A DNA stretch of 13,000 nt from an uncultured Oscillospiraceae bacterium (GTDB lineage Bacteria > Bacillota > Clostridia > Oscillospirales > Oscillospiraceae). The DNA lies in assembly GCA_900756495.1 (NCBI GenBank), contig CAAEKI010000149.1, positions 1 to 13,000 on the forward strand. Direction: 5' to 3'. Positions 70 to 13,000 of this stretch are shown here, one piece after another (the stretch's first letter is position 1; each line of letters opens with the position of its first letter). The notes under the pieces were generated by a model. It searched no databases and had not been told where the DNA came from. It was given only the letters and a program-made list of their open reading frames with translations. The translations under genes were made by a program, and so were the position numbers.

Positions 70-726
70 TCAAGAGGGGGCGGCGACGAGCACCTGGGCG
101 CGCTTGGCGGCCTCGGCTGCATTGACAGTATAGGCGTCGGCACCAATCTGTTCGGCAAAGGAGCGTGAAATAGGACCGCCGCCCACCATAACCCGAACGG
201 AATCACGCAGGCCCTCCTCCTTCAGCCGCTCGATTACCCGCCGCATGTTATCCATGGTAGTAGTCATGAGAGTAGACATGCACACCAGAGAGGCTCCGGT
301 TTCCCTCGTTTGGGAGACAAATTCCTCCACAGGAACATCGCGGCCCAGATCGATCACGTGAAACCCGGCGGTTTCCAGCATGATCTTAACCAGATTTTTG
401 CCGATATCGTGCGTGTCTCCCTCTACCACACCGATGACGGCGGTATGGGCGTTATCCTGGGAGATTGCCTTCAGATGGGGGCGCAGGATCTCCAGGCCAT
501 TGTACATGGCGTCGGAGCAGATGAGCAGCTCAGGGACAAAATACTCCTCTTCCTCATAGAGCTGACCGGCTTTTTCCATTCCCTTGGACAACCCCTGGGT
601 GATCCCGTCGTAAGCGTCATATCCCTCGTCTACATAGGTCTTGGCCGCGCTGACAACAGCTTCGTCCTCCATCTCCAAGACACAGCGATCCAACTCATGT
701 AGCAGTTCCTGTTTCCTGTCCGGCAT
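70..726 (-). CDS. Corrinoid protein (cobalamin-binding methyl carrier of a methyltransferase system)
   Basis: A 218-residue protein of the MtaC/MtbC/MttC type, which carries a methyl group on cobalamin between two methyltransferases in the cytoplasm. Residues about 5-88 form the helical cap typical of methionine-synthase-like B12 domains. Residues about 95-215 form the Rossmann-like B12-binding domain, with the base-off/His-on motif G-D-T-H-D-I-G (D104, H106, G109; H106 is the expected lower cobalt ligand), then S-T-L-M-T-T-T (151-157) and V-G-G-G (181-184). Length and motif order are normal for the family. The ATG at 726 is chosen over an in-frame ATG at 765 because GGAAGGAG lies about 10 bases before it. 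It overlaps the end of the preceding gene by 32 bases, so the two are probably translationally coupled. It is the only corrinoid protein in the window, so it should be the common partner of the UroD-family enzymes and the activase. Family assignment is strong; the substrate pathway is unknown. Confidence 0.94.
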   Translation of the reverse strand: MPDRKQELLHELDRCVLEMEDEAVVSAAKTYVDEGYDAYDGITQGLSKGMEKAGQLYEEEEYFVPELLICSDAMYNGLEILRPHLKAISQDNAHTAVIGVVEGDTHDIGKNLVKIMLETAGFHVIDLGRDVPVEEFVSQTRETGASLVCMSTLMTTTMDNMRRVIERLKEEGLRDSVRVMVGGGPISRSFAEQIGADAYTVNAAEAAKRAQVLVAAPS

Positions 727-1576
727 TGTTTTTACGCTCCTTCCATGTGATAAGGGCCAGTTCAACTCTGGGGCTGTCCACCAGATTCAGGCACCAGTGC
801 CCCACAAGGCGCTTCTCTCCCAGTGTACTCCGGTATGCCTCCAGTGCCTGGCCGTAAGTCCGGCACCCCAGCGGGGCGCGCCAATGCTCCAGGGTACAGC
901 TTTCGGTATCCAGGAGGCTCTGGGTCATCTTTCCGCAGAGGTGGACCACCGTACCCGGATTGTCTGTGCGCAGCCGCTCCAGCAGCCCCAGACAACATTC
1001 GCGATAGTGCCGCATAAAGGTGCGCTCCCCCAGAATATCCAGCGCGGCAACCGGATCTGCATAGGAGAGAATGACTGCGCCCCGGTTGGCGGCCATAGCG
1101 GCCCACTCCGCAGCCCAGGCCGCGGCACGGGCCAGAAGTGCGGAGCCCTCCGGCTTGCGCAGAACAGAAAAGAGCTTCGGCATGGGCAGAAGAGCCGCGA
1201 GTATTGTCAGAGGGCCGTCTACCTGAAAGATAACACGTTCACCCCCGGCGGACAGCAGGTCTACAGCCGAGAGCATGGCACGCATACGGGGGGAGAGTAC
1301 GGCAAAGGCAGGCACCTCCGAAGCGGAGGAGAAGGGAGGCTGTCCGGCCATTGCTCCCGTCACCGTCAGCACGGTTGGGGCCCCCAGGCCCTCGGCCGCC
1401 AGCGTGCTGCAAAATGGAAGCCGGACATATCCGCCCTGTCCGGCGGCAAGGGCTGCCGCCGCAATTTTATCAGGAGACAGGTGAAGCATCTCCGGCTGCG
1501 AGAGCCCCAGCAGATCTGTAATACCACCGGGAAGCTGAGGATGGTCCTGCCCGCTCTGGCAGATAAAACGTTCCAT
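695..1576 (-). CDS. Short UroD-family (MtaA/CmuA-like) protein A, C-terminally truncated
   Basis: A 293-residue protein with the uroporphyrinogen-decarboxylase fold used by cobamide methyltransferases. Visible family marks are F-Q-V-D-G-P-L-T (117-124), Y-A-D-P (172-175) followed by the I-L-G stretch, and H-L-C-G (212-215), which supplies the first two zinc ligands of an HxC...C site. The third ligand, in the other three copies a Cys 76-83 residues after the His just before a T-P-(L/I)-E-N stretch, is absent: this protein ends 81 residues after its His in a polar tail (KERKNNAGQETGTAT). C262 lies at the strand that in the paralogues reads G-N-V, so it is not an obvious substitute. The N-terminal part is also short. 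The ATG at 1576 follows GGAGGGG and starts 2 bases after the activase gene stops; an ATG 13 codons earlier lacks such a site. It may be a non-catalytic or specialised subunit, or a distinct subfamily. Function unassigned beyond the fold. Confidence 0.8.
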   Translation of the reverse strand: MERFICQSGQDHPQLPGGITDLLGLSQPEMLHLSPDKIAAAALAAGQGGYVRLPFCSTLAAEGLGAPTVLTVTGAMAGQPPFSSASEVPAFAVLSPRMRAMLSAVDLLSAGGERVIFQVDGPLTILAALLPMPKLFSVLRKPEGSALLARAAAWAAEWAAMAANRGAVILSYADPVAALDILGERTFMRHYRECCLGLLERLRTDNPGTVVHLCGKMTQSLLDTESCTLEHWRAPLGCRTYGQALEAYRSTLGEKRLVGHWCLNLVDSPRVELALITWKERKNNAGQETGTAT

Positions 1577-1578
1577 AC

Positions 1579-3183
1579 TCACGCCCCTCCAAATTGCAGG
1601 CACTTGGCAAAGCACCGCTCATACCCGGGTGAGGTAGACAACTCGATGTACGATATTTCCCCGGCGATCCGTCCGGCCCTTGCCCGCTCCTGGCGGGAGA
1701 GCAGGCACATGATGGCGCCTGATTTGGCGGCGTTACCCAAGTATGAGATTTTTCCAGCCAGGGCGGAGGGCAGGAGGCCCGCGCCAACCAGGCTCTCCGG
1801 AGCCAGATGCCGGCCAAATTGTCCAGCCACGAGAACACGGTCGATCTCTTCGGGCTGAATCTTGAGAGATTCCATCAGAGTCAGGCAGCCGGAGAGAATA
1901 GCGCCCTTGCACAGCTGAACCTGACGGATATCGTTCTGAGTCAGGAACAGCCCGTTTTCCTCAGAGAGCACAATACGCCGCTTTCCCGATCCGTCCGTGC
2001 CGGAGCACGGGTGGCTGGCGGAAATACGCCCGCTTTTCCCGATCAGTCCGCACTCCGCCGCCTGACTCACCGCGTCCAAGAGGCCGCTGCCGCACAACCC
2101 GCGGGGCGCGCCGCCGCCAATGACTCCAAGCACTGCCTGCGAACCGCGAAGCAGCACACGATCCACAGCGCCGGGGGCGGCCCGCATTCCGCAGCTGATG
2201 TTCATGCCCTCCAGCGCCGGCCCGGCCGCGCATGCACAGGCGGCCATCCGGCCTTTCCGGCTGAGGATCATTTCTCCATTGGTTCCGATGTCCAGAAAGA
2301 GGACGGTGTCCTCCGCTGCGTCCAGACGGGCGGCAAGAGCCCCGGCCACAATATCGCCGCCGATATAGGCAGAGACCGGGGGGGAGCACCAGACATGGGC
2401 CGCCGGATGGAGCTCTAAACCAAGCTCTGAAGCGGGTACCTCCCGGGCGCCGGTAAACGAGCAGCGGTATGGGGCGCGCCCCAGGGGTTCCAGCGGTTCC
2501 CGCAGCAATGCATGCAGCATTGTGGCATTGCCGCTGACAGCGACCTCAAAGATTGCCCGGGGAGAAACGCCCATCCTGAAGACACTCTCCTGAAGCGCAG
2601 AGACCAGAACACGCTGCAGCTCCGCCGCTCCGCACTCACGTTCTGCCGCATAGTGGATGCGGGACAGCACGTCCAGGCCGTAGGCCTTTTGAGGGTTGAG
2701 GAATCCATCCTCCCCGGCTGTCTCGCCGGTTTGCAAATCCAGCAGTGTGACCGCTATCGTCGTGGTGCCGATATCCACGGCCAGACCATAGACGCCGGAC
2801 GCATCTGGTTCTAAGACACGGTCTCCGCGCAGAACAGAGGTGCCGTGTGTTCCTTTCCGGCAGGAGACGGCCGGATCAAAAACAAAGGGCGGCAGAACTC
2901 CCTCGCCCAGTATGGCACTGGAGTCGGCGGACAGCAGACCCAGCGGATCCACCTCTACCGGCCCTTCCGGTACGGCCAGACAGGCCAGCCGGATTCCGCT
3001 GTGCAGTTCCTCAGAAGTGAGAAACGCCTTCTCTTCGGGTGTGACGGGACCGGCTTTTCCACGCAGCAGGCGTACCCTGCATTTCCCGCACAGCCCTTTG
3101 CCGTTGCACGGGCTCTCCAGAAGGATTCCGGCGCCCCGCAGCTGGTTGAGAATCGTATCACCGGTTCCCGTTATCTGCAGCAT
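1579..3183 (-). CDS. RACo-type corrinoid activation protein ([2Fe-2S] plus ASKHA/DUF4445 ATPase)
   Basis: A 534-residue protein of the reductive activator of corrinoid proteins family. It uses ATP to drive electron transfer to inactive Co(II) corrinoid and return it to Co(I). The N-terminal ferredoxin-like domain (about 1-80) has C26, C32, C35 and C68 in a Cx5Cx2C...C pattern for one [2Fe-2S] cluster. The large ASKHA part starts near residue 133 with V-D-I-G-T-T-T (137-143) and has a second phosphate loop, L-D-I-G-T-N-G-E (298-305). It also shows the family stretches A-A-G-P-A-L-E-G (319-326), G-L-C-G-S-G (362-367) and a G-x-F-G motif (454-457). At 534 residues it has a short linker compared with the roughly 630-residue Carboxydothermus RACo. 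The ATG at 3183 follows GGAGGAGG and overlaps the upstream gene by 26 bases. Its place between UroD-family genes and the corrinoid protein fits a dedicated repair enzyme. Its electron donor is not visible here. Confidence 0.92.
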   Translation of the reverse strand: MLQITGTGDTILNQLRGAGILLESPCNGKGLCGKCRVRLLRGKAGPVTPEEKAFLTSEELHSGIRLACLAVPEGPVEVDPLGLLSADSSAILGEGVLPPFVFDPAVSCRKGTHGTSVLRGDRVLEPDASGVYGLAVDIGTTTIAVTLLDLQTGETAGEDGFLNPQKAYGLDVLSRIHYAAERECGAAELQRVLVSALQESVFRMGVSPRAIFEVAVSGNATMLHALLREPLEPLGRAPYRCSFTGAREVPASELGLELHPAAHVWCSPPVSAYIGGDIVAGALAARLDAAEDTVLFLDIGTNGEMILSRKGRMAACACAAGPALEGMNISCGMRAAPGAVDRVLLRGSQAVLGVIGGGAPRGLCGSGLLDAVSQAAECGLIGKSGRISASHPCSGTDGSGKRRIVLSEENGLFLTQNDIRQVQLCKGAILSGCLTLMESLKIQPEEIDRVLVAGQFGRHLAPESLVGAGLLPSALAGKISYLGNAAKSGAIMCLLSRQERARAGRIAGEISYIELSTSPGYERCFAKCLQFGGA

Positions 3184-4213
3184 GGGCCTCCTCCTTCACA
3201 GTCTCCATCAATATCCGGATATTCTCCAGCGGGGTAGTGGTGCCCAGTCCACAGGCCGGGGCGAGAATATTCACGCCGCTCTTCAGACAGCCGCGGCAAA
3301 GTCCGCGTACTGTTTGGGGTGTCCCGCCCGCAAGGGCGAAGGTACTTACATTGCCCATCACCGCCTTGCCCGGCACGTTTTTGAGTACGTCGCGGATACT
3401 GACCACCGCATCAAAACTGATGGCATCGCACTCAAGCTGAGCGAGTTGAGGATAGATGGACTGAAGGCGGCCGCAGATATGGACGATGACGCCGCGGCAC
3501 AGGGGACGGAGGGCCCGGCAAAGCCGGTTGAGAGCGGGGAGAGCATACTCCTCAAAGAGCTTCGGACCCAGTATCTCCCCTGTCCCGCTGGGATCGGAGA
3601 TGGCAATAAACGATGCGCCGGACTCAATCTGGGCCTTACCAAATGCAATCAGGTTATCGGTGACAAACTCCATCAGGGCATGGGCGTTCTCACGCTTTTT
3701 GCGCAGGTCCTTATAAAAGCACGCCGCATCAGCCAGCGAGGAGGCCAGGCTGACGGGGCCGGTCAGACTGCCGGTAATGGCTGCGTCCGGATAGCGCTGC
3801 TCAATCATGGAGAGCGCCTCCAGTACGACCTTGGGCCGCCCGGCGGAGAGATCCATGTGCGGGAGGTCGCGCCAGCCGTCTACCGAGGAAATGGGATAGG
3901 ATGTGACACGGGGCTCGGTATAGCGGTCGCCCAAATCCACCTGGGCCCCCATGGACTCTGCCTCTACCGTCATACAAAAGGGGACGCCGATGTTGTCAAA
4001 GAGCTGATTTGTGTATACAGCGGCGGCCAGCTCTGCCATGACCGCCGGGCGGAGGTGGGCTTCCGGCCAGCAGACGCCGCAGAGGTCCATCAGCTGTGCG
4101 GTCAGCATATTCATCATCCCGCCGGGGCAGATACAGGGGCGGCGCGTTGACCTCTTCCCATGCAGAGATTCTTCCAAAAGATCGGCAGGGGTAAAACCGT
4201 TTTGCTGTCTCAT
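3158..4213 (-). CDS. UroD-family methylcobamide methyltransferase B (MtbA/MtaA-like)
   Basis: A 351-residue cytoplasmic methyltransferase of the MtbA/MtaA group. In methanogens this group moves the methyl group from a corrinoid protein to coenzyme M; bacterial relatives use other acceptors or donors. Key features are R-P-C-I-C-P-G-G-M-M-N (25-35), typical of this group, G-S-L-T-G-P (148-153), S-D-P-S-G (206-210), the zinc motif H-I-C-G (H245, C247) and the third ligand C321 in A-C-G-L-G-T-T-T-P-L-E-N. Length is normal. It starts 1 base after the stop of the preceding UroD-family gene, with GAGGAGGGG just upstream of the ATG. It belongs to a different subgroup from copies C and D, and it sits with the activase and the corrinoid protein rather than behind a transporter. 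I infer that it is the shared second methyltransferase of the core. Acceptor unknown: coenzyme M is unlikely in a Firmicute, and tetrahydrofolate or another thiol is possible. Confidence 0.88.
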   Translation of the reverse strand: MRQQNGFTPADLLEESLHGKRSTRRPCICPGGMMNMLTAQLMDLCGVCWPEAHLRPAVMAELAAAVYTNQLFDNIGVPFCMTVEAESMGAQVDLGDRYTEPRVTSYPISSVDGWRDLPHMDLSAGRPKVVLEALSMIEQRYPDAAITGSLTGPVSLASSLADAACFYKDLRKKRENAHALMEFVTDNLIAFGKAQIESGASFIAISDPSGTGEILGPKLFEEYALPALNRLCRALRPLCRGVIVHICGRLQSIYPQLAQLECDAISFDAVVSIRDVLKNVPGKAVMGNVSTFALAGGTPQTVRGLCRGCLKSGVNILAPACGLGTTTPLENIRILMETVKEEAHAADNGNR

Positions 4214-4214
4214 A

Positions 4215-5369
4215 CTAAACCAGCCCCTCCTCGATCAAGCCCCGACAGAGCTGTCCCTTTTTGGCACCCCGTCCATACCGGCGGGCGGCATACACATAGG
4301 CTCGAAGATTTTCTATCGGAGTGCCGACAGGAATCTGGCAGCCAACCGCCAACATGTATCCCATGGGGTTATCACTACACTTGATCAGGCACTGCTGCAC
4401 GGAATGTATTACATCGTCAATGGTGCCGTTTTTTAGCACATCCACAGGAGGTACATTTCCCAATATCATCATCCTGTCGCCTACGGCTTCTTTCAACTCC
4501 TGCAAATCCTCACAGTTATCTACAGAGAAAGAAGGCATGCCTAGATCGGATAAATAACTCCAAATAGGCTTTGTTTTTCCGCAGATATGTACACCTGGTA
4601 TCTTGCCCGTCAACCGTTTGAAGCCGGCAAGCAAGTCCTGTAAGTGGGGTACACAGAACTCCTGAAATTGCCGTTCACTGATTAAATACATAGAAGATAC
4701 CGGGTCAGAGAAGCTTGCGGTAGCAGGACCGAGTTCCTCAATGACAGCTTCCAGCCATTTAAGGCTGCAGTGTACGCTTAAATCCAGAAGTTCATGTACC
4801 TTTGCCTTGTTTTTGAGCATATCCCGCATCAGCAGCTCGGGCTTACGAATGGCGGCGGCGGTAGACAATGGGCCGACTACCCCTAGAGTAACAGGAAAGT
4901 TATTTCCACACTCCTTTTTGTACTGACGAACAAGAGCAGTTTTTTGGGATAGAAATTCGTTTGTTTTGGGGTCAAACTTGGTATACATCTCAGGAAGCAT
5001 GTCGTAGTCTGTCAAAACAAAGTCGGTCACATAATCAACACTATTTTCCGGGTATTTTATCGTAGAGCCCAATGCCGCTCCGATTCCCCGGAGCCCAATA
5101 GAGACCGTAGCGCTTTTGCCCTCGCCAAGTTCTGGATTAGTGCGGATGAATTCCAGTTCCGCGCGCCGCGCGTCAAAACTCTGATTATACTGCCTCACTG
5201 TATAGCCATACAGGGGAGCCGCCGTTTCCCCCAGTGTCAGGGCATATGGTACATGATCCACCTCATCCCCGTTGGCGTAAGCCGCCATACGCTCTGCATT
5301 GGTCATTTCCTCCGGGTACGCGCTCAGCCCCTCCATCAATGTTTTATAATCCATATCAATACGTCCCAT
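4215..5369 (-). CDS. UroD-family corrinoid methyltransferase C (partner of importer A)
   Basis: A protein of up to 384 residues with a UroD-type barrel. It has V-V-G-P-L-S-T (164-170), S-D-P-V-S-S (221-226), the zinc motif H-I-C-G (H261, C263), I-L-G-N-V (302-306) and the third ligand C344 in V-G-C-Q-I-P-V-G-T-P-I-E-N. All three zinc ligands are therefore present, and it should be an active methyltransferase rather than a heme-pathway decarboxylase. It resembles copy D, the last gene of the other importer cassette, more than copy B. I infer that it demethylates what importer A brings in. The start is uncertain: the ATG at 5369 has no ribosome site, and the ATG at 5354 has only a weak GGGACG before it. 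A 14-bp stem-loop ends about 9 bases before the first ATG. Base composition is AT-richer than copies B and D, like the rest of cassette A. Confidence 0.87.
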   Translation of the reverse strand: MGRIDMDYKTLMEGLSAYPEEMTNAERMAAYANGDEVDHVPYALTLGETAAPLYGYTVRQYNQSFDARRAELEFIRTNPELGEGKSATVSIGLRGIGAALGSTIKYPENSVDYVTDFVLTDYDMLPEMYTKFDPKTNEFLSQKTALVRQYKKECGNNFPVTLGVVGPLSTAAAIRKPELLMRDMLKNKAKVHELLDLSVHCSLKWLEAVIEELGPATASFSDPVSSMYLISERQFQEFCVPHLQDLLAGFKRLTGKIPGVHICGKTKPIWSYLSDLGMPSFSVDNCEDLQELKEAVGDRMMILGNVPPVDVLKNGTIDDVIHSVQQCLIKCSDNPMGYMLAVGCQIPVGTPIENLRAYVYAARRYGRGAKKGQLCRGLIEEGLV

Positions 5370-5378
5370 TTTATGATA

Positions 5379-5426
5379 AAGAAAAGGATACGCAAAGTAT
5401 AAGTGTCATTTTCGTATCCTCTTCTT
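5379..5426 (-). terminator. Stem-loop between permease A and methyltransferase C (partial terminator or attenuator)
   Basis: On the minus strand AAGAAGAGGATACG pairs with CGTATCCTTTTCTT over 14 bp with one G-U wobble and a 20-base loop. The 3' arm is T-rich (CCTTTTCTTTAT), as in an intrinsic terminator, although the loop is long. It starts 5 bases after the permease stop and ends just before the candidate starts of the next gene. It could lower read-through into methyltransferase C or protect the 3' end of the transporter mRNA. Confidence 0.5.
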
Positions 5427-5431
5427 CAAAA

Positions 5432-6193
5432 CTAATCGATCGTCCAATGCAACATGCGGTCTTTTAGTTTTTCAACGATTTGCATCACGATAACCATAAC
5501 CAGTGCCAGGAAAAGAAATCCGCTCCAAACGTGCTGGAACCGTCCTAAGTCAGAGTTAGCTTTTACGAAATAGCCCATGCCAAGCTTAGTTCCATACATC
5601 TCTGCAAACACAAGGCTGAGGAATGAACTTCTCAGAGCTGTGACAAAACCACCAGCCATGGAAGGAAACGCTGCCGGCAAAACGATTTTGATCAACCGCT
5701 TTGCGCCGGATACCCCAAGCACGGTCGCATTGTCCAAATATCGTTTATCAATGGTCATAATACCATTAATGGTGGCGAACAGCATGCTCCAGACGGTTCC
5801 CCAGACAACCAGAAACAGACCTGCTGCTCGTAGTGTTGGTGCCAGATGGATCGCAAAAGGTGAAAGCAGGATAACAGGGATCATGCTGACCGCATAGATG
5901 AACGGATGGATTGTTTTTCTGATCCTTTTGTTCAGCCCCATGGGAATACCCAGCGCCAACGCCAGAACTACACCAATGATTACACCGGGAATGAGCAGTT
6001 CAAAAGATGCCTTTAGGTTTGCCAACATATCGGGCCAGTGCTCCAGAAAGGACTGTCCGATGGTACCTACCTGTGGGAATATATATCGGTCCAGGAATTC
6101 CAAATCGGTGGCAATCTTATAGACTAGAAAGATACCCACAAAAATCAGTATCGTGCCAGTGTAATTTTTAAAAAAAGCTCTCAGCCTATTCAT
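5432..6193 (-). CDS. ABC transporter permease A (NitT/TauT family)
   Basis: A 253-residue inner-membrane permease of the SsuC/TauC/NrtB type, the membrane channel of an importer. About six hydrophobic segments are visible: near 12-28, 64-85, 98-115, 123-143, 181-199 and 224-241. The cytoplasmic EAA-type loop that contacts the ATPase is at about 155-185 (T-V-L-G-V-S-G-A-K-R-L...L-P-A-A-F-P). The segment M-T-I-D-K-R-Y-L (146-153) and the end H-W-T-I-D are closely matched by permease B. Length is normal. The start at 6193 lies 19 bases after the binding-protein stop, with AGGGG about 12 bases before the ATG. With the adjacent binding protein and ATPase it forms a complete importer. The family covers nitrate, sulfonates, taurine, aromatic acids and thiamine precursors, so the substrate cannot be named. 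Confidence 0.92.
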   Translation of the reverse strand: MNRLRAFFKNYTGTILIFVGIFLVYKIATDLEFLDRYIFPQVGTIGQSFLEHWPDMLANLKASFELLIPGVIIGVVLALALGIPMGLNKRIRKTIHPFIYAVSMIPVILLSPFAIHLAPTLRAAGLFLVVWGTVWSMLFATINGIMTIDKRYLDNATVLGVSGAKRLIKIVLPAAFPSMAGGFVTALRSSFLSLVFAEMYGTKLGMGYFVKANSDLGRFQHVWSGFLFLALVMVIVMQIVEKLKDRMLHWTID

Positions 6194-6212
6194 GACACTT
6201 TGTTTCCCCTAA

Positions 6213-7307
6213 CTACAGAATGTCAGAATTGACTTCGTTAAAGTACGCCACATAATAATCATAGTATTCGGGATTCTCATCGTAGTAGTCTTCATAAGCC
6301 GCATCTAACGCCGCTTTATAGATATCCGTCGTGAAATGCTCTTTCAGGTTCTGAATATCCGTGTTTTCTCCCAAGACCCCCAGACGGTCCAGGTAATCCC
6401 AAGCCCTGGAAGTAGCCTGCCAATGAGGATCCAGACGAATCATAAAATGATCATTCTTTATAAAACCCTCTACATATTCTTTAGTCAGCTCGGTCTGTGC
6501 TACGGTTACTTCAACTGCAAAGTCTTTATCGGTTTCCAGCACTTCCTGAGCGCGCATCCAGGCTTTCATCAGGCAGACCGCCGCATCCTGGTTCTCGTTG
6601 AGCCATTCTGTTGTTGAATAGACGCGGCAGCAGGAGTACTCAGGGAGCAAATCGCTGGCAAAGCACGCTGGGATCAGGCCCATCTCCGCAGCCTGGGTAT
6701 GCAGACCTGTGGTAGAAGGGCAATAATCCGCCTCACCCTTTCGTACTAGCTCCAAGTTGGACGTTACGTCCACAGACTGAACCCACTCAATATCATTGTA
6801 GGGGTCATAACCCAAATCCATTAAGGGGCCGGAAATGTAATAAGCAGCAGGAGAGCCGATAACACGTTTGCCGATGAGATCTTCCACGCTGCTGATTTCA
6901 CTGCCCTCTCGACCGATAACGGGCATACAGCCCTGCAACATATATCCACCGAAAATGGTAAATTCACTGCCATCCGCAATAGACTGTAATGGAACGGTTG
7001 TTCCGTATGTAGAAGCAACATCCACTTGGCCGGCGAGCAGTGCGGCGTTTGCGTCAACGGGATAGTGAGTAAAATAAAGTTCAACCTGAACACCCACGTC
7101 TTCATAGAAGCCCTTCTCCTCAGCGATGGCGTGCAGAATATGACCACTGTAAGGGGTGCAGGCTACACGGATGACAGGTGTTTCTTCTGGAGTATCGGCA
7201 TCAAAATTCTGTGAAGCCTCAGTTCCGGGGATCGTATCAGGCGACCCGGTACCACCAGTTGTCTTATCTTTTCCCGACAGACAGCCGGTAAGCAGCGATA
7301 TCACCAT
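6213..7307 (-). CDS. ABC transporter substrate-binding lipoprotein A (NMT1/TauA-like), signal peptide out of frame
   Basis: The open frame from the ATG at 7307 gives 364 residues of an NMT1/TauA/SsuA-type periplasmic-binding fold that captures ligand outside the membrane for permease A. It begins V-I-S-L-L-T-G-C, so the lipobox L-T-G-C is intact, but the positively charged front of the signal peptide is missing. That front (M-K-K-K-L-I-T-L-L-L-F-S-A) is encoded just upstream from the ATG at 7347, which has a good AAGGA site, but a run of ten A's shifts it one base out of frame. The ATG at 7307 has no ribosome site. Restored, the protein would have 377 residues with the lipid-bearing cysteine at 22. 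The body shares S-T-Y-G-T, an F-x-I-F-G-G-Y-M stretch and the vicinal-cysteine motif S-C-C-R (225-228) with binding protein B. The rest of the frame is uninterrupted and normal in length. It may be switched, made by slippage, or simply carry a sequence error. Confidence 0.88.
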   Translation of the reverse strand: MVISLLTGCLSGKDKTTGGTGSPDTIPGTEASQNFDADTPEETPVIRVACTPYSGHILHAIAEEKGFYEDVGVQVELYFTHYPVDANAALLAGQVDVASTYGTTVPLQSIADGSEFTIFGGYMLQGCMPVIGREGSEISSVEDLIGKRVIGSPAAYYISGPLMDLGYDPYNDIEWVQSVDVTSNLELVRKGEADYCPSTTGLHTQAAEMGLIPACFASDLLPEYSCCRVYSTTEWLNENQDAAVCLMKAWMRAQEVLETDKDFAVEVTVAQTELTKEYVEGFIKNDHFMIRLDPHWQATSRAWDYLDRLGVLGENTDIQNLKEHFTTDIYKAALDAAYEDYYDENPEYYDYYVAYFNEVNSDIL

Positions 7308-7347
7308 GGCAGAAAATAAAAGCAGAGTTATCAGTTTTTTTTTTCAT
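7308..7347 (-). other. Out-of-frame signal-peptide start with a ten-A tract (possible slippage or phase-variable site)
   Basis: The minus strand reads GAAGGAACT then ATG (7345-7347), followed by exactly ten A's (7335-7344) and then CTG-ATA-ACT. With nine A's the frame joins the binding-protein gene and gives a textbook lipoprotein leader. With ten, translation from this ATG gives a 27-residue peptide ending in TAA. The binding-protein frame itself has a TGA formed by the ATG's TG plus the first A of the run. Runs of nine or more A's are known sites of RNA-polymerase slippage and replication slippage. Confidence 0.8.
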
Positions 7348-7385
7348 AGTTCCTTCTCTCTTCCTTTTTATTTTTTATATAATCA

Positions 7386-7409
7386 GGCGGTGTGCTTAAT
7401 TGCACCGCC
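7386..7409 (-). repeat. Short GC-rich stem-loop at the ATPase A / binding protein A junction
   Basis: GGCGGTG pairs with CACCGCC over 7 bp around a 10-base loop. The hairpin overlaps the ATPase stop codon and lies about 40 bases before the binding-protein start. No T-run follows on the minus strand, so it is more likely an RNA-processing or stabilising hairpin, common before highly expressed binding-protein genes, than a terminator. Confidence 0.45.
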
Positions 7410-8181
7410 CAACAATATCCTGATGGAATTGCTTGATTAACTCGTTGCGCATCCGCATAGCTTCCGGATCTTCGTACAAGGTTTCGCGCGTATGCCGCTT
7501 TTCTTCGGGGATTTTCTGTTCATAAATAATTTGGCTCGGAGTTTGCCCTAACACACATATCCGGTTTGCCAACAAGAGGGCTTCATCCACATCATGGGTC
7601 ACGAAAAATACCGTCTTCTTCTGTGCTTCCTTTGCCCAGAGCTCCAATACCATATCCTGCAGCTTGGCCCTTGTCAGCGCATCCAATGCGCCGAAAGGCT
7701 CGTCCATCAGCAAAATCGTGGGGTCGACGCTAAATGACCGGGCAATGGCGCACCGCTGCTTCATTCCGCCAGAGAGTTCCTTCGGATATTTATGGAATAC
7801 TTCTTCATCCAAACCTACACTGCAAATGGCCTGAAGGGCGATCTGCTTCAGCTCTTTTTTCTTTTTTGCAGGAAACTTTTCCTCCAGGGCCAGCAGTATA
7901 TTTTCACCTGCTGTCATCCAAGGGAACAGACCGTAGTCCTGAAAAACCACGCTTCGTTCCAGATCGGCTCCCTTCAGCACCTTATCCCCTATTTTTATTT
8001 GCCCCGACGTTGGTTTTTCTAACCCTGCCAATAGGCGCAGCAGTGTACTTTTACCACAACCGGACTGCCCTAACAGGCAGACAAATTCTCCTGCACTTAC
8101 CTCGAGATTGATATCCTCCAATATCAACCTGCCGCCTTCGCTATAAGAAAATGAAAGGTGCTCAATTACGACGTCATGCAT
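7396..8181 (-). CDS. ABC transporter ATP-binding protein A (NitT/TauT family)
   Basis: A 261-residue ATPase of the SsuB/TauB type that powers importer A from the cytoplasmic face. All working motifs are present: Walker A G-Q-S-G-C-G-K-S-T (38-46), Q-loop glutamine 81 in V-F-Q-D-Y-G-L-F-P-W, signature L-S-G-G-M-K-Q-R (136-143), Walker B I-L-L-M-D-E-P (156-162), D-loop G-A-L-D (164-167) and switch histidine 196 in F-V-T-H-D. The frame is open for 67 more codons upstream, but the ATG at 8181 is chosen because GAGGGG lies 8 bases before it and the family begins here. The upstream extension has no family similarity that I can see. The sequence is clearly homologous to ATPase B, with the same Walker A flank and the same F-P-W-M-T-A-G stretch. 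Confidence 0.94.
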   Translation of the reverse strand: MHDVVIEHLSFSYSEGGRLILEDINLEVSAGEFVCLLGQSGCGKSTLLRLLAGLEKPTSGQIKIGDKVLKGADLERSVVFQDYGLFPWMTAGENILLALEEKFPAKKKKELKQIALQAICSVGLDEEVFHKYPKELSGGMKQRCAIARSFSVDPTILLMDEPFGALDALTRAKLQDMVLELWAKEAQKKTVFFVTHDVDEALLLANRICVLGQTPSQIIYEQKIPEEKRHTRETLYEDPEAMRMRNELIKQFHQDIVGRCN

Positions 8182-8391
8182 ATTTCTGTTCCCCTCAGAT
8201 TTTTCTTGCAGAAAGCCACTGATCACATGTAAGTTATTTCCAGGAAATAGGGGAAACATCTTGTCTGCGTTCCTGTGGACTGCTTTTGTTGTGGAGGTGC
8301 CGCTTATTTTATTATTAGAGGTTATGATAGGCAGACGGTTTGCCGAACAGCAGACTCCCGGGCGGCGTTGGACGGTTGGCATCCTGGGGTG
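8182..8391 (-). other. AT-rich junction between cassette B and cassette A (no gene seen)
   Basis: These 210 bases separate the stop of methyltransferase D from the start of ATPase A; junctions elsewhere in the operon are 1-95 bases or overlap. I find no coding signal beyond an unused upstream extension of the ATPase frame. There is no convincing terminator and no good TTGACA/TATAAT pair on the minus strand; stretches such as TAATAATAAAAT near 8305-8316 could serve as a weak -10 region. Composition drops from GC-rich to AT-rich within about 8290-8400, marking the edge of cassette A. Confidence 0.5.
8235..8249. promoter_or_regulatory. Perfect 15-bp palindrome in the cassette junction (candidate operator)
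   Basis: TATTTCCAGGAAATA is a perfect inverted repeat (7-bp arms, central A) about 54 bases before the ATPase A start. Its position between the two cassettes would suit a regulator of cassette A, but no regulator gene or convincing promoter is visible, so this is only a candidate. Confidence 0.3.
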
Positions 8392-9486
8392 TCATAGAGT
8401 GCGCGTTCCGCCGCCGCAGGCTGCAATCAGATCGTCCACGTGCTCGGGGACGACGGGGTAGCCCACATCCCGTACAGCGTCCATCATGGCCTGAATGTTT
8501 TCCAATGGGGTCTCTACAGGAAGGCTGCACCCGGACATCACGACATAGCCTTTGGGGGAGTCGTAGCCCTCGCGGATGCAAGCCAGCGTTTTCAACCTGA
8601 CCTCCAGGGGAGAGCCGGAATACATTACGCCGCCGGGATCTACGTTGCCCAGGATTTTGGTTTTCCCGCCGATGGAATTCTTGCATTCTGTCAGACTGGC
8701 TACATTATCAATGCTCATACCGGCGATCCCCATATCCGCCAGATCAGTCCAGAGCCGGCTGCTCTTTCCGCACACATGAATAATGACATTTCTGCCCAGT
8801 CCTCTGATGTAATCCACCAGCTCCCGGAGGTAGGGCAGAGAGAAGGTGCGGAAATCCCTTGGACTGACCACGGTGGAGGAGGACATGGGTTCAGAGATGG
8901 CTGGCGTCAGTCCGAGGTTGACGGACGCCGCCGCATAGGCCTTGCAGGTTTCCAGAGAGACCCTGCAGAGCTTGTGGACGGCCTCCGGGTTTTTGTGCAT
9001 CAGTCCAAGCGTCTCCTTTACGCCCATCAGAAAAAAGGCGTTGGTAAAGGGACCGACTACGCCGCAGGAGCAGCCGATTTCGTCCCCCACCTCGTCCACA
9101 AGGTATTTCATGGCCTCCAATTGGACTGGCAGCCGCCCGTCCTTAAAGGGATCGGCAGGTTGGAGAGAGTCAATCTGGCTCTCATCCTGAATGGCGGGCT
9201 GCTCCAGATCAGCCGTATTATCGGCCGGATATTTTACCTTGGCCCCCATGGCCTCCGCCCAGGGAAACAGATCGGTAAAGATGCGGATGCTGTCGTAGCC
9301 GAATCGGCGATAGGCTGCAATCTGCGCCTTTGCCAATACTTTTGGATCTGAGTTAAATGCAGAGATTTTGCAGCCGTAAATGCGCGCTACGCCGTTGGCG
9401 ATGTTCGGGTTGCAGGGCAGCCGGTCGGCTGGCTTGCCCTGGGCAATGGCAGCGGCGCGCTGAGCGGGGGTCATTTGGTCAAGCAT
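8392..9486 (-). CDS. UroD-family corrinoid methyltransferase D (partner of importer B)
   Basis: A 364-residue UroD-fold methyltransferase with V-V-G-P-F-T-N (143-149), I-S-E-P-M-S-S (197-203), the zinc motif H-V-C-G (H237, C239), I-L-G-N-V-D-P-G (278-285) and the third zinc ligand C320 in S-G-C-S-L-P-V-E-T-P-L-E-N. The full HxC...C site is present and length is typical. The N-terminal M-R-Q-A-G-R stretch of true uroporphyrinogen decarboxylase (HemE) is missing, which argues against a heme role. The ATG at 9486 follows GGAGG at 7 bases; an ATG 5 bases earlier is out of frame. It begins 37 bases after permease B and is the last gene of cassette B, mirroring copy C in cassette A. I infer that it transfers a methyl group from the compound taken up by importer B to the corrinoid protein. 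It is GC-richer than copy C. Confidence 0.88.
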   Translation of the reverse strand: MLDQMTPAQRAAAIAQGKPADRLPCNPNIANGVARIYGCKISAFNSDPKVLAKAQIAAYRRFGYDSIRIFTDLFPWAEAMGAKVKYPADNTADLEQPAIQDESQIDSLQPADPFKDGRLPVQLEAMKYLVDEVGDEIGCSCGVVGPFTNAFFLMGVKETLGLMHKNPEAVHKLCRVSLETCKAYAAASVNLGLTPAISEPMSSSTVVSPRDFRTFSLPYLRELVDYIRGLGRNVIIHVCGKSSRLWTDLADMGIAGMSIDNVASLTECKNSIGGKTKILGNVDPGGVMYSGSPLEVRLKTLACIREGYDSPKGYVVMSGCSLPVETPLENIQAMMDAVRDVGYPVVPEHVDDLIAACGGGTRTL

Positions 9487-9523
9487 TTCATTTCCTCCCG
9501 GCGGTTCCTGGAATAGGAAGCGC

Positions 9524-10282
9524 TCAATTGTTGATGGTCCAGTACAGGAGCCGGTTTTTGATCAGATCAAAGACATAGAGAATAATAACCAGTACGATAG
9601 CCATAAAGATAAAGCCCACTGCGACCAGATCAAAACGGCCGAAATCGGAGTAGTACTGAATAAAGTATCCCATTCCAGAAGTGGCGCCGAACATCTCGGC
9701 TACGGCCAGCAGGGTAAAGGCCAATTTTAAGGAGATGGTGCAGCCCGTTAGGATAGCGGGAGACGCGGCGGGGAGCACAATCCGGAACAGCCGCTGCATG
9801 CGGGGAAGCTCCAATGTAGCTGCGTTTTCCAGATACCGTTTGTCGATGGTCATAACGGCGGTAATGGTAGAGCCCAGGATAATCCAGAAGCAGCCCAGAA
9901 AAATAATGAAAATGGAGGCAATGCGGAACGAGGGGAAGAGGTTAATGGCATAAGGAGTGAGCAGCGTGACCGGGATGGCGCTGAATGCATTGATATATGG
10001 CGTCAGATTTTTGCGGACAAGATTCTTGGAACCAATAAAGGCGCCAAGGCCGATGCCGCATACCAGCGCCAGCAGGTAGGCGATGACCAGCAGGGAGAGG
10101 GAGCTTTTCAAGCCCTCCATCAACTGCCCAAAATAGGATACAAAAAGACCCGGTACGGTCGAAATGCTGTGAAACAGGAAGGGATTGAGCACGTGGAATC
10201 CATCGGTCAACAGGACATAGGCGGCAATGACACAGACGAAGATCAAAATGATGCCCCACCGCTTTTGCAAGAATTGCTTCAT
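9524..10282 (-). CDS. ABC transporter permease B (NitT/TauT family)
   Basis: A 252-residue inner-membrane permease related to permease A. Hydrophobic segments are visible near 9-25, 62-84, 97-115, 121-144, 180-199 and 222-241. The EAA-type ATPase-contact loop is at about 152-182 (A-T-L-E-L-P...V-L-P-A-A-S-P). It shares M-T-I-D-K-R-Y-L-E-N-A with permease A and ends Y-W-T-I-N-N. The start at 10282 has AGGAGG (10295-10300) upstream. A GC-rich stem-loop with a T-run sits immediately before that ribosome site, so expression is probably lower than that of the binding protein made from the same transcript. With ATPase B and binding protein B it forms a complete importer of unknown substrate. Confidence 0.92.
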   Translation of the reverse strand: MKQFLQKRWGIILIFVCVIAAYVLLTDGFHVLNPFLFHSISTVPGLFVSYFGQLMEGLKSSLSLLVIAYLLALVCGIGLGAFIGSKNLVRKNLTPYINAFSAIPVTLLTPYAINLFPSFRIASIFIIFLGCFWIILGSTITAVMTIDKRYLENAATLELPRMQRLFRIVLPAASPAILTGCTISLKLAFTLLAVAEMFGATSGMGYFIQYYSDFGRFDLVAVGFIFMAIVLVIILYVFDLIKNRLLYWTINN

Positions 10283-10301
10283 ACGGCTGAGTAACCTCCT
10301 G

Positions 10302-10356
10302 AAAAATGGCGCGAACCCGGGAACGGGGCCGCCTTGCCCTCATCCCCGGACGCGCC
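10302..10356 (-). terminator. Attenuator-like stem-loop between binding protein B and permease B
   Basis: On the minus strand GGCGCG pairs with CGCGCC, and inside it CCGGGGA pairs with TTCCCGG (one G-U). The structure is followed by ATTTTTC and then the AGGAGG of permease B. This is an intrinsic-terminator shape in an intercistronic gap of 95 bases. Such partial terminators are common after binding-protein genes and would give more binding protein than permease; they may also protect the upstream mRNA from decay. Confidence 0.65.
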
Positions 10357-10377
10357 GCAGATATGTACGATGAAAGA

Positions 10378-11538
10378 CTACAGATTATTCTCTGTGAACT
10401 GCACCATCTTATCCTGGAAGAACTGGCTGTCGGGGTATTCTTCGATTAAGGACTCCAGAGCCCGCTGGTAAATGGAAGAGTTCATATGGTCGCTCAGATC
10501 AATTTCACCCACGCTGAGGTAGCCAAAGTTGGCCATTTTTTCCCACATAGTCTGAACGCTCTTTGTATAGGGGTCGGTATCATACTTCATATGGGGGCTG
10601 AGCACAAAACTGTCGGCAGTCTCCTTTTGGAGATCCAGGTTTTCCACAACCAGGTCGGAGACTTCTTCCATGTTACCCTGCATATACTCCTCGGCACGCA
10701 GGTAGGAGCGCAGCAGCCGGTAGAGGGCCTCTTCGTTCTCATTCAGGTAGGTGTTGGTACAGAGCATGCGGCAGCAAGAGTGGTTGGGCCAGAGCTCGTC
10801 AGGCCACATTTTTACCTCCAGGCCAAGCTCTCTGGCCTGGATCTGGTAACCAGTGGCGGTGGCGCCAAAGTCGACTTCGCCCTTCATAACGGCCTGAAGC
10901 ACGTCGGTATTCTTCTTATATTCAATGAATTCGATCATATCAGGGTCGTTCTCGTCGCCAATAATGGTGGTGCCGCCATAAGTAAAGGAATAGCCCGCGT
11001 CATAGAGAATACCCTTTAATACAATGTCAGGCGTACCGCCGCGCGTGATGCCGATTCGCTTGCCGCGCAGGCTGTCCAGATCTGTGTACTCGGTTTCGGG
11101 CTTGCCGTAGAGAGGGGTCTCGCCAATGATCATATAACCGGCAAACAGGTTGAAGTCCTGCCCGTTGGCAATCTGAGTCAGGGGGCCGCCGGTACCATAG
11201 GTGGAGAGTACGTCGACTTGACCGGCGGCCAGGGCGGAAGCGGCGTCCGACAGGTTGCTCAGCCAGACCATCTCAACCTCCACGCCTTCCTCCTCGTTAA
11301 AACCGTGCTTATCGGCGATGAATTGAAACACCTGACCAGAGGTGGGCTGTGCGCCGACGCGAATTTTCAGTACGTCATCCGGGGCGCTTTGGGCGGGAGC
11401 AGTGGAAGCTGGGGCGGTATCCGGCTCGGTGGAGGGCTGCTGAGAAGGTGCGGAGGCGGTGCCGTTCCCTCCGCTACAGGCACTCAGCGCCAGTGCGGCG
11501 GTCAGCAATAGGGACGGCAGAAAAAGCAGTTTCTTCAT
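10378..11538 (-). CDS. ABC transporter substrate-binding lipoprotein B (NMT1/TauA-like)
   Basis: A 386-residue lipoprotein. The signal peptide M-K-K-L-L-F-L-P... ends in the lipobox L-S-A-C, so C21 carries the lipid anchor. A low-complexity Ser/Thr/Ala/Pro linker (about 22-55) spaces the binding domain from the membrane, which supports a Gram-positive host. The domain (about 56-386) has the NitT/TauT binding-protein fold: K-I-R-V-G-A-Q-P-T-S-G at its front, A-A-G-Q-V-D-V-L-S-T-Y-G-T (104-116), L-F-A-G-Y-M (131-136) and S-C-C-R (254-257). The last three are matched in binding protein A, so the two are homologues, although much of the rest differs, which suggests different ligands. The start at 11538 has AAGGAGAG upstream. 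No frame problem is seen here, unlike copy A. Substrate unknown. Confidence 0.93.
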   Translation of the reverse strand: MKKLLFLPSLLLTAALALSACSGGNGTASAPSQQPSTEPDTAPASTAPAQSAPDDVLKIRVGAQPTSGQVFQFIADKHGFNEEEGVEVEMVWLSNLSDAASALAAGQVDVLSTYGTGGPLTQIANGQDFNLFAGYMIIGETPLYGKPETEYTDLDSLRGKRIGITRGGTPDIVLKGILYDAGYSFTYGGTTIIGDENDPDMIEFIEYKKNTDVLQAVMKGEVDFGATATGYQIQARELGLEVKMWPDELWPNHSCCRMLCTNTYLNENEEALYRLLRSYLRAEEYMQGNMEEVSDLVVENLDLQKETADSFVLSPHMKYDTDPYTKSVQTMWEKMANFGYLSVGEIDLSDHMNSSIYQRALESLIEEYPDSQFFQDKMVQFTENNL

Positions 11539-11608
11539 GGGGGGTCTCTCTCCTTAATTAGATTTGTTTCTCACATTTCATTGCTTGGAATAGTGGACAG
11601 GTTCCTTA

Positions 11609-12439
11609 TCAGACAGCTTGCTCCAGTGTGATTTCTCCGGAGGCAATCTCCTCTTGGGCAGCGCGTTCATTGGCATCGGTATGAATTAGGCCAATCAGAT
11701 GGTTGCGCAGGCTGGCGATCTTGGGATCCGTATACATGTTTTTACGGGTAGGATGAACCTCGCCTTCAAAGGAGTGCCGGTACATTACCGTGGCAGGAGA
11801 CTGGCTGAGCACATAGATGTCAGTGGCCAGAAGCAGTGCCTCATCTACCTCGTGGGTTACAAAAAATATGGTTTTCCGCTTGTCGCCCTCCTGCTGCCAG
11901 AGTTTAAGTACCAGATCCTGCAGCTTTGCTTTTGTAACTGCGTCCAGGGAACCGAAAGGCTCGTCCATAAGCAGAATCGGAGGGTCAATGGCAAAGGCCC
12001 GGGCAATACCGCAGCGCTGCTTCTGGCCGCCGGAGAGTTCACCTGGGAGTTTATCGTAGAGAGAAGCGGTCATACCGACATGATCCATCCAGTAGAGCGC
12101 GCGTTCTTTGCGCTCGGCCTTGCTCATCCCTGGAAAGCGCCGCTCCAGTGCAATGGTGATGTTCTGACCTGCCGTCATCCAAGGAAACAGACCATAGTCC
12201 TGGAATACAACGCCGCGCTGCAGGCTTGCGCCTTTTACCGGCTGTCCGTCTACCAGGACCGCGCCGCTGTCAGGCTTCTCCAATCCGGCCAGAAGGCGGA
12301 GCAGCGTACTTTTTCCGCAGCCGGACTGTCCCAAAAGACAGACGAAAGAACCGGATTGTGCGTGGATGGAGATGTCTCCCAGAATCTGAGCCTGCCCATT
12401 GTATGAGAACGTCAGGTGGTCGAGAGATACATTAAGCAT
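11609..12439 (-). CDS. ABC transporter ATP-binding protein B (NitT/TauT family)
   Basis: A 276-residue ATPase, first gene of the operon, energising importer B. It has Walker A G-Q-S-G-C-G-K-S-T (37-45), Q-loop V-F-Q-D-Y-G-L-F-P-W (Q80), signature L-S-G-G-Q-K-Q-R (135-142), Walker B I-L-L-M-D-E-P (155-161), D-loop G-S-L-D (163-166) and switch histidine 196. The C-terminal tail of about 20 residues (A-N-E-R-A-A-Q-E-E-I...) is acidic and absent from ATPase A. The start at 12439 follows GGAGGCG. A strong promoter lies about 70-100 bases upstream, giving a leader of roughly 65 bases with no recognisable riboswitch. Confidence 0.95.
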   Translation of the reverse strand: MLNVSLDHLTFSYNGQAQILGDISIHAQSGSFVCLLGQSGCGKSTLLRLLAGLEKPDSGAVLVDGQPVKGASLQRGVVFQDYGLFPWMTAGQNITIALERRFPGMSKAERKERALYWMDHVGMTASLYDKLPGELSGGQKQRCGIARAFAIDPPILLMDEPFGSLDAVTKAKLQDLVLKLWQQEGDKRKTIFFVTHEVDEALLLATDIYVLSQSPATVMYRHSFEGEVHPTRKNMYTDPKIASLRNHLIGLIHTDANERAAQEEIASGEITLEQAV

Positions 12440-12511: not shown

Positions 12512-12541
12512 ATTATAAAAATATACTTGACTAATTGTCAA
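12512..12541 (-). promoter_or_regulatory. Strong sigma-70/SigA-type promoter P1 of the operon
   Basis: On the minus strand a perfect -35 box TTGACA (12536-12541) and a perfect -10 box TATAAT (12512-12517) are separated by 18 bases, in a very AT-rich stretch. Transcription should start near 12505, about 65 bases before the ATPase B start codon. It is the best promoter in the window and is correctly placed to drive the whole operon. Confidence 0.8.
12527..12541. promoter_or_regulatory. Inverted repeat over the P1 -35 box (candidate operator)
   Basis: TTGAC-N5-GTCAA is a perfect inverted repeat that includes the -35 box and extends into the spacer. A dimeric repressor bound here would block RNA polymerase. 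Its half-sites are the same as those of the second palindrome at 12653-12665. No regulator gene lies in the window. Confidence 0.45.
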
Positions 12542-12636: not shown

Positions 12637-12664
12637 ATTTTATGTAAAAGTGGTTGACCGTCAA
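12637..12664 (-). promoter_or_regulatory. Candidate upstream promoter P2
   Basis: On the minus strand TTGACG (12659-12664) and TAAAAT (12637-12642) are 16 bases apart, each one mismatch from consensus. A start near 12630 would place it about 125 bases upstream of P1's start, giving a longer leader to the same operon. It is weaker than P1 and unproven. Confidence 0.4.
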
Positions 12665-12945: not shown

Positions 12946-12950
12946 CTCGT

Positions 12951-13000
12951 TGGTACGGCCGAAGGGACTCGAACCCCCAACATTCAGAACCGGAATCTGA
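12951..13000 (-). tRNA. tRNA-Arg (anticodon CCG), 3' part, cut by the window edge
   Basis: Reading the minus strand from 13000: a 5-bp anticodon stem TCAGA/TCTGA encloses the loop TTCCGGT, giving anticodon CCG (12991-12993) for arginine codon CGG. Then follow a short variable loop, a T arm with the TTCGAGT loop, the 3' acceptor strand CGGCCGT, discriminator A and an encoded CCA (12951-12953). The D arm and 5' acceptor strand lie beyond the window. Gene-encoded CCA and the adjoining terminator are normal. Confidence 0.9.

Follow-up and report, generated by a model that had tools for sequence, protein, structure and literature searches.

Mlp proteins, as defined by Kountz and Balskus (PMC10418091), are members of the uroporphyrinogen decarboxylase (UroD) family with more than 25% identity to soluble coenzyme M (CoM) methyltransferase, and four rules set the "true" mlp gene clusters, of which the type 1 cluster has been proposed to demethylate methyl-selenium or methyl-sulfur compounds. 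One Mlp2, the only one assayed in that account (with selenide and sulfide), methylates selenide in vitro. Mlp clusters are widespread in anaerobes. In Methanococcus, furthermore, the sdm genes are linked to the use of dimethylselenide; in M. maripaludis, which can use dimethylselenide, methylseleninate and further forms, depletion of selenium induces an sdm-like operon, and the uptake route of dimethylselenide and dimethyldiselenide is left open (PMC11097638). Here, we describe a window, i.e., the whole 13,000-nt stretch analysed (positions 1 to 13,000 of contig CAAEKI010000149.1, assembly GCA_900756495.1) from an uncultured Oscillospiraceae bacterium, in which one run of genes encodes two importers of the NitT/TauT family, four UroD-fold proteins, a RACo-type activase, and a single corrinoid protein. 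Judging from sequence, the run is probably an importer-equipped type 1 mlp cluster, in which each of the two importers would supply a demethylase of its own, both enzymes acting on a single corrinoid carrier, for selenium (or sulfur) scavenging.

Like the type 1 cluster in the account of PMC10418091, the run combines several MtaA-like UroD proteins, one corrinoid protein and one activase of the Ram/RACE kind; also shared are the soft zinc site, apparently the pattern of three Mlp lineages and, in relatives, the link to selD and the neighbouring methionine-type importers and double-cubane protein. Unlike that cluster, the window has two NitT/TauT importers within the run, each with an Mlp2-like enzyme behind it, and these two enzymes come from different sub-clades. 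SdmABC of Methanococcus (PMC11097638) also consists of a corrinoid protein and methyl-selenide methyltransferases annotated as uroporphyrinogen decarboxylases, but it is archaeal, and the sdm set as described there names no importer. The soluble CoM methyltransferases MtaA/MtbA (4ay7) share with the window proteins the fold, the His-Cys-Cys zinc ligands and 26.5-31.6% identity, whereas the window host is bacterial. The SAO operon (Haft and Gwadz, as cited in PMC13188914) has an importer of a related family, dependent on a substrate-binding protein (SBP), beside organo-element chemistry, but the window proteins score below the three SAO cut-offs matched, and no in-frame selenocysteine codon was found in the twelve window reading frames as read (table 11). 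In the O-demethylases of the vanillate/veratrol type (OdmB, VdmB, CdmB), a UroD enzyme is likewise combined with a corrinoid protein and an activase; the window differs from them in zinc ligands and sequence family, and a tetrahydrofolate methyltransferase was not found among its twelve genes (13 kb visible, the published rule for mlp clusters spanning 20 kb).

Gene organization

Twelve open reading frames (ORFs) were read at positions 70-12439, all on the minus strand, and in the direction of transcription their order is ATP_A, SBP_A, PermA, UroD_A, ATP_B, SBP_B, PermB, UroD_B, UroD3, RACo, short UroD, and Corr. Pfam and NCBIfam matches to ATP-binding cassette (ABC) ATPases, NMT1-type binding proteins, permeases, three URO-D proteins, RACo and B12-binding domains confirm, together with the ORFs, the order given in the initial annotation, namely, ATPase, binding protein, permease and UroD twice, then UroD, RACo, short UroD and corrinoid protein. 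The features are as follows (G480 and G1510 are two genomes used for comparison).

11609..12439, minus strand: ATP_A, ATPase of NitT/TauT importer A (PF00005; 59% identical to the G480 and 64% to the G1510 orthologue)
10378..11538, minus strand: SBP_A, lipoprotein binding protein of importer A, NMT1/SsuA type, with Cys-Cys-Arg (C255 C256 R257)
9524..10282, minus strand: PermA, permease of importer A (PF00528; nitrate/taurine permease families below cut-off; 39% identical to PermB)
8392..9486, minus strand: UroD_A, predicted Mlp2-like UroD-fold corrinoid methyltransferase with zinc ligands His-Cys-Cys (PF01208, 282 bits; placed by its tree clade)
7396..8181, minus strand: ATP_B, ATPase of importer B (reading frame open from 8382, start probably ATG 8181; sister of ATP_A plus the G480 ATPase)
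6213..7307, minus strand: SBP_B, lipoprotein binding protein of importer B (PF09084; 5' end broken by one extra A)
5432..6193, minus strand: PermB, permease of importer B (PF00528)
4215..5369, minus strand: UroD_B, predicted Mlp2-like UroD-fold corrinoid methyltransferase, His-Cys-Cys (relatives sit behind MetNIQ-like importers)
3158..4213, minus strand: UroD3, predicted Mlp3-like UroD-fold methyltransferase nearest to MtaA/MtbA, His-Cys-Cys (NF004889, 393 bits, cut-off 244; 31.6% identical to MtaA)
1579..3183, minus strand: RACo/Ram-type corrinoid reductive activase (PF14574, PF17651, PF00111)
695..1576, minus strand: short UroD (UroE_short), predicted Mlp1-like UroD-fold protein (keeps H-x-C and the second Cys; GH-x-C)
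70..726, minus strand: Corr, corrinoid (B12-binding) methyl-carrier protein (PF02310, PF02607; TIGR02370 at 210 bits, just below the 215 cut-off)
12512..12541, minus strand: sigma-70-like promoter TTGACA-18-TATAAT, perfect consensus, overlapped by the palindrome TTGACTAATTGTCAA (12527-12541)

UroD-fold proteins and probable membership in the mlp clusters

Aligned locally with the MtaA stretch of 4ay7, all four UroD proteins lie within the identity range given above (the UroD_B alignment covering 214 aa only) and hence pass the published Mlp threshold. The run agrees with three of the four published cluster rules; indeed, all genes point in the same direction with no divergent gene in between, and UroD_B to Corr are contiguous under a spacing rule of at most 2 kb, with the extra UroD_A lying 3.0 kb away, past importer B. 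By most of the published criteria, the core of the window would be a type 1 mlp gene cluster.

We then compared 81 UroD proteins in a tree, the input being the window, 29 loci and MtaA (best matches at E 1e-8, L079 left out, ORFs of more than 420 aa trimmed to the matched part). The tree, made by a quick method and with long branches in the short lineage, has a short lineage of 21 rows, a UroD3 lineage of 28 and an Mlp2-like lineage of 31, joined by MtaA; UroD_A and UroD_B are only 29% identical to each other. From tree shape and gene order, these lineages appear to resemble the published Mlp1, Mlp3 and Mlp2, respectively: the locus of Acetoanaerobium noterae has the order short UroD-UroD-Corr-UroD3-RACo, which matches the order Mlp1-Mlp2-Corr-Mlp3-Ram of Cl. 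ljungdahlii (PMC10418091) and suggests the naming used here.

In the alignment columns compared with MtaA, the zinc ligands His-Cys-Cys are kept in all 28 UroD3 rows and in 30 of the 31 Mlp2-like rows, the window proteins among them; the sole exception, L073_6695, has a gap aligned at the last ligand. Both Cys residues are present in all 21 rows of the short lineage and the His, by alignment, in 12, with the intervening stretch missing, and these deviations agree with the published departure of several Mlp1 from His-Cys-Cys (PMC10418091). The short UroD has no Pfam match of its own and matched NCBIfam models below cut-off, while PF01208 was found in 11 of the 14 homologues listed, and its AlphaFold model (predicted local distance difference test, pLDDT, 86.3) has MtaA 4ay7 as the best match (Foldseek E 1.7e-10).

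In the class sample, 20 of 391 genomes gave a UroD3 match. From these came 19 extended regions (the twentieth is the genome of L001); a corrinoid protein, RACo and two or more UroD proteins are present in 16 of them, and part of this set in L068, L069 and L074. Clusters of relatives include MetNIQ-like importers, a double-cubane protein, and CobW genes. The proposal of a corrinoid methyl-transfer pathway with one carrier is supported. The statement that the operon has no known substrate and is not a described system needs to be divided: the core matches the type 1 mlp cluster with its proposed methyl-selenium or methyl-sulfur substrates, but for the two-importer form, no description was found in a limited search of the literature. 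PMC10418091 (version 4) does not use the word "NitT" in its main text, and "transporter" appears there once, as methionine transporters.

Several unusual UroD genes were seen in the loci compared. L064 (4969-6756) has a 595-aa ORF matching both CobW and a short Mlp1-like UroD, an apparent fusion, and the CobW and short UroD genes of A. noterae overlap. Also, a UroD protein of L033 (6423-7790) carries a C-terminal Thioredoxin_3 domain and directly precedes a NitT/TauT importer, and UroD3 of L099 (7827-9037) is split in two ORFs, possibly by a frameshift.

The two importers and their predicted enzyme partners

The predicted pairing of each importer with its own enzyme is supported by other genomes, though not by all that have importer A. 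In G480 (L031), the order ATP-SBP-Perm-UroD_A-Corr recurs at 59/52/54/65/56% identity, the run stopping at the contig end; a second contig carries short UroD, UroD3 and RACo at its end. In G1510 (L086), the same order recurs at 64/53/64/68/60%; a UroD3 lies on a different contig, and neither RACo nor a corrinoid gene was recognised within the 17 kb read around that UroD3. The concern that the arrangement might be confined to a single assembly is removed for the module of importer A, UroD_A and corrinoid protein, but the complete two-importer run was seen in this window alone. The two other genomes with importer A have UroD3 as well: in G1570 it belongs to a full mlp cluster, and in G1432 it neighbours, on another contig, a corrinoid gene and a UroD_A of 68% identity. 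All four genomes with importer A at 52% identity or more thus have UroD3 at E 1e-79 or better against a base rate of 20/391, where the former genomes come from family, phylum and order samples, the latter from the class sample, and related genomes are counted as independent.

UroD_B has five relatives in the genomes searched (L002 and L004-L007; 55-57% identical), all of which start about 10-30 nt past the permease of a MetQ-MetN-MetI-like importer. When these genomes were searched for the window's species, the best result was UroD_B relatives at 56-58%. These importer proteins in L002 and L005-L007 are 61-97% identical to those of L004, and the five loci, being mutually close, do not represent five independent events. 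In the window, importer B fills the place of the MetNIQ-like importer, and UroD_B accordingly stands directly after an importer in six of six loci despite the change of importer family.

The two importers are not independent of each other, as the trees indicate: importer A groups with the G480 importer and importer B is their sister, with support of 95/99 for the binding proteins, 100/100 for the ATPases and 93/100 for the permeases (19 hand-picked binding proteins and ATPases and 11 permeases, with the second binding protein of L034 left out and SBP_B on a long branch). Importer B is hence considered to be an old paralogue of importer A. NitT/TauT importers were also found with other clusters, namely those of A. 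noterae, L070 and L072. Near the importer-A copy in L087 (3552-8696), there are a UroD_B-like gene (43%), two PEP_hydrolase-like genes and a UPF0261 gene; in L088 (7967-12115), a related importer is followed by an AtuA-family gene in place of UroD; and the MetN-like ATPase of L002 (8934-9985) is read as two ORFs, possibly frameshifted.

Proposed link to selenium

The selD gene was found over cut-off in 19 of 27 genomes with the cluster as opposed to 1 of 20 genomes of the same class sample without a UroD3 match (Fisher p 5e-6, with related genomes treated as independent); these 20 controls are the ones among 371 non-matching genomes that the UroD3 search happened to list. In the 17-row UroD3 group to which the window belongs (support 90), selD is over cut-off in 14 of 15 tested genomes, a count that leaves out A. 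noterae and the window's host, and the fifteenth (G004) has a selD fragment at a contig end. A UroD3 clade of eight rows (L068-L075) has selD in only one of eight genomes. Given that clusters lacking selenium share one Mlp3 clade according to PMC10418091, the position of the window UroD3 outside the selD-poor clade suggests that the window belongs with the selenium group. The literature found on methylated selenium forms consisted of general selenium papers only.

The Cys-Cys-Arg motif of the binding proteins

A Cys-Cys-Arg motif (C255-C256-R257 in SBP_A and C226-C227-R228 in SBP_B) is invariant in an alignment of 72 hand-picked NitT/TauT binding proteins. The pattern [SA]CC[RKQ] occurs in all 120 SBP_A homologues listed out of 252 found; among the 75 SBP_B homologues listed, 66 have the strict motif, seven another CC past residue 60, and two neither, and the strict motif is present in 16 of 18 binding proteins of the loci. 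The motif aligns with the cysteine cluster of fungal THI5/THI13, and a literature search on THI5-type cysteine motifs found nothing on such binding proteins. Among the best 50 rows of the fold comparison, the overall fold of SBP_A is closest to the anion/sulfonate binders CmpA, NrtA and SsuA. Because the motif also occurs in related importers with no UroD neighbour within the sequence covered, it marks a subfamily and not a pathway. A more specific idea is that both importers, A and B, are ABC systems dedicated to methylated selenium anions, with Cys-Cys-Arg catching the soft selenium compound and each importer feeding its own Mlp2-type demethylase; methylseleninate would be a candidate, as it equals in size and charge the anions that the SsuA/CmpA/NrtA relatives bind. 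We regard this idea as tentative and unlikely in its full form; if true, the importer type would predict the substrate of each Mlp2 paralogue.

Proposed pathway and alternative explanations

From the gene order, protein families, zinc ligands, clades, sister importers, recurring pairs and selD co-occurrence in relatives, all of which are directly visible in the sequences, we infer the chemistry, its direction and the substrates. Importers A and B, as their pairing with enzymes suggests, would each take up a small selenium (or sulfur) compound that carries a methyl group; UroD_A and UroD_B would bind the soft selenium or sulfur atom at the His-Cys-Cys zinc and pass the methyl group to the Co(I) corrinoid protein, a demethylation to which their family, the zinc site and the published Mlp2 assay point. 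RACo, as is known for its family, would re-reduce the corrinoid, and UroD3, given its nearness to MtaA/MtbA, may move the methyl group on to a thiol, with the short UroD as its partner or as a further donor enzyme. The selenide (or sulfide) thus released would enter selenoprotein (or methionine) synthesis.

While we consider this pathway probable, several points weigh against it. The selD link is drawn from the genomes of relatives and not from the window's own host, and L070 and L072, two clusters with a NitT/TauT importer located downstream, belong to genomes in which selD does not exceed its cut-off. The lineage names are based on gene order and on the shape of a quick tree with long branches, not on the ClMlp1-3 sequences. 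Importer A has no adjacent UroD in two of its four genomes (G1570, L087; G1432, L082), the MetQ/NlpA and MetI model scores are below the curated cut-offs in all five loci with UroD_B relatives, and by BLAST to the reference sequences, at most 4 of the 19 regions (L062, L068, L070 and L072) have importers in or beside them. Also, binding proteins with Cys-Cys-Arg occur at eight loci without a UroD gene in the approximately 4 kb read.

Some of these points bear on the alternatives. The same machinery might act on methyl-sulfur compounds instead of selenium, in methionine salvage or sulfur scavenging, as Kountz and Balskus propose for about 10% of clusters (PMC10418091). Sulfur is favoured for L070 and L072 given their lack of selD over cut-off; furthermore, the binding proteins match the SsuA/sulfonate family, albeit below cut-off, and a methionine gamma-lyase family gene lies near importer A in G480. 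The window UroD3 is, however, placed outside the selD-poor clade and in a group with selD in nearly all tested genomes, so that sulfur alone appears possible but rather unlikely here. The importers might instead carry something else, such as an anion, a vitamin or a corrinoid precursor, and merely share the operon, with only the UroD/corrinoid core handling methyl compounds; the importer-A copies without a UroD neighbour in G1570 and G1432 and the related importer beside the AtuA gene in L088 would fit such an arrangement. It is quite improbable in view of the order ATP-SBP-Perm-UroD_A in three genomes (the window, G480 and G1510) and of the constant place of UroD_B behind an importer.

NitT/TauT importers can carry aromatics, and UroD, corrinoid and activase parts also build O-demethylases. 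Methoxylated aromatics, among the substrates suggested in the initial annotation, are nonetheless unlikely: UroD_A, UroD_B and UroD3, the three full-length proteins, have His-Cys-Cys zinc sites, whereas in O-methyltransferases, one or both of the zinc-site Cys are replaced (PMC10418091). UroD_A scores 119 bits to MtaA versus 23.7 to CdmB, and no CdmB entry is among the matches listed for UroD3. With these ligands and similarities, an O-demethylase identity was rejected, and O-demethylation of methoxylated aromatics or amines, to which the lack of a tetrahydrofolate methyltransferase among the twelve genes is also opposed, is very unlikely. Handling of organometals (Hg, As) as in the SAO system, with the vicinal cysteines of the binding proteins holding a soft metal alkyl, would make use of the invariant Cys-Cys-Arg and of the weak kinship of PermB and ATP_B to SaoP/SaoA. 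Scores are far under the SAO cut-offs of the SaoX, SaoP and SaoA models (bits/cut-off: SBP_B 20.5/300, PermB 90.6/295, ATP_B 202.8/360, PermA 64.7/295), ruling out SAO membership, and no SaoL-like lyase was found among the twelve genes; such a role is thus most improbable.

Start sites, transcription and flanking features

Ribosome-binding sites and the lengths of homologues put the start of Corr probably at ATG 726 instead of TTG 765, that of short UroD probably at ATG 1576 instead of GTG 1615, and that of ATP_B probably at ATG 8181. With the last of these, the gap between UroD_A and ATP_B becomes 210 nt instead of 9; the remaining gaps are at most 95 nt. Only one 12/12 sigma-70-like promoter was found in the window, about 70 nt ahead of ATP_A, with its -35 box within TTGACTAATTGTCAA, a palindrome pattern that occurs once against 0.01 expected; four minus-strand terminator-like sites were found, every one of them intragenic. 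A single long operon transcript is plausible.

Two palindromes with the same half sites are present, namely TTGAC-N5-GTCAA over the -35 box (12527-12541) and TTGAC-N-GTCAA upstream (12654-12664), and this pair is possibly an operator for a regulator. An operator of a shared regulon was considered and set aside; TTGAC-N1-8-GTCAA occurs six times in 595,599 bases of 35 sequences, with four of the occurrences outside the window. Upstream of SBP_B (7307-7360), an ATG with a stretch of ten A's is one base out of frame with the SBP_B ORF. The public protein cluster P0015 (377 aa) is 100% identical over the 364 residues of the window SBP_B and begins with MKKKLITLL, which equals the in-frame read-through, and the frame break may be a homopolymer error or a strain variant.

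By eye, the 3' part of a tRNA with anticodon CCG (Arg) is seen at 12950-13000 on the minus strand, cut by the window end; ARAGORN found no complete tRNA in the window, and no Rfam match was above the gathering score. A mobile-element origin was also considered and rejected: SBP_A had a single match in the plasmid collection (25% identity, 45% covered), UroD_A had only five weak records in the phage collection (22-25%), and viral contigs, searched with these two as single-protein queries, contained no relatives of either.

Conclusion

In conclusion, the window appears to hold a new variant arrangement of the type 1 mlp cluster, set apart by its recurring importer-demethylase pairs. Importer-enzyme pairs kept across genomes make the substrates of Mlp proteins directly testable, and the ligands of the two lipoproteins would name the substrates of two orphan demethylases. 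If selenium is indeed what is scavenged, the cluster would reveal how clostridia, which include many gut species, compete for selenium in methylated form.

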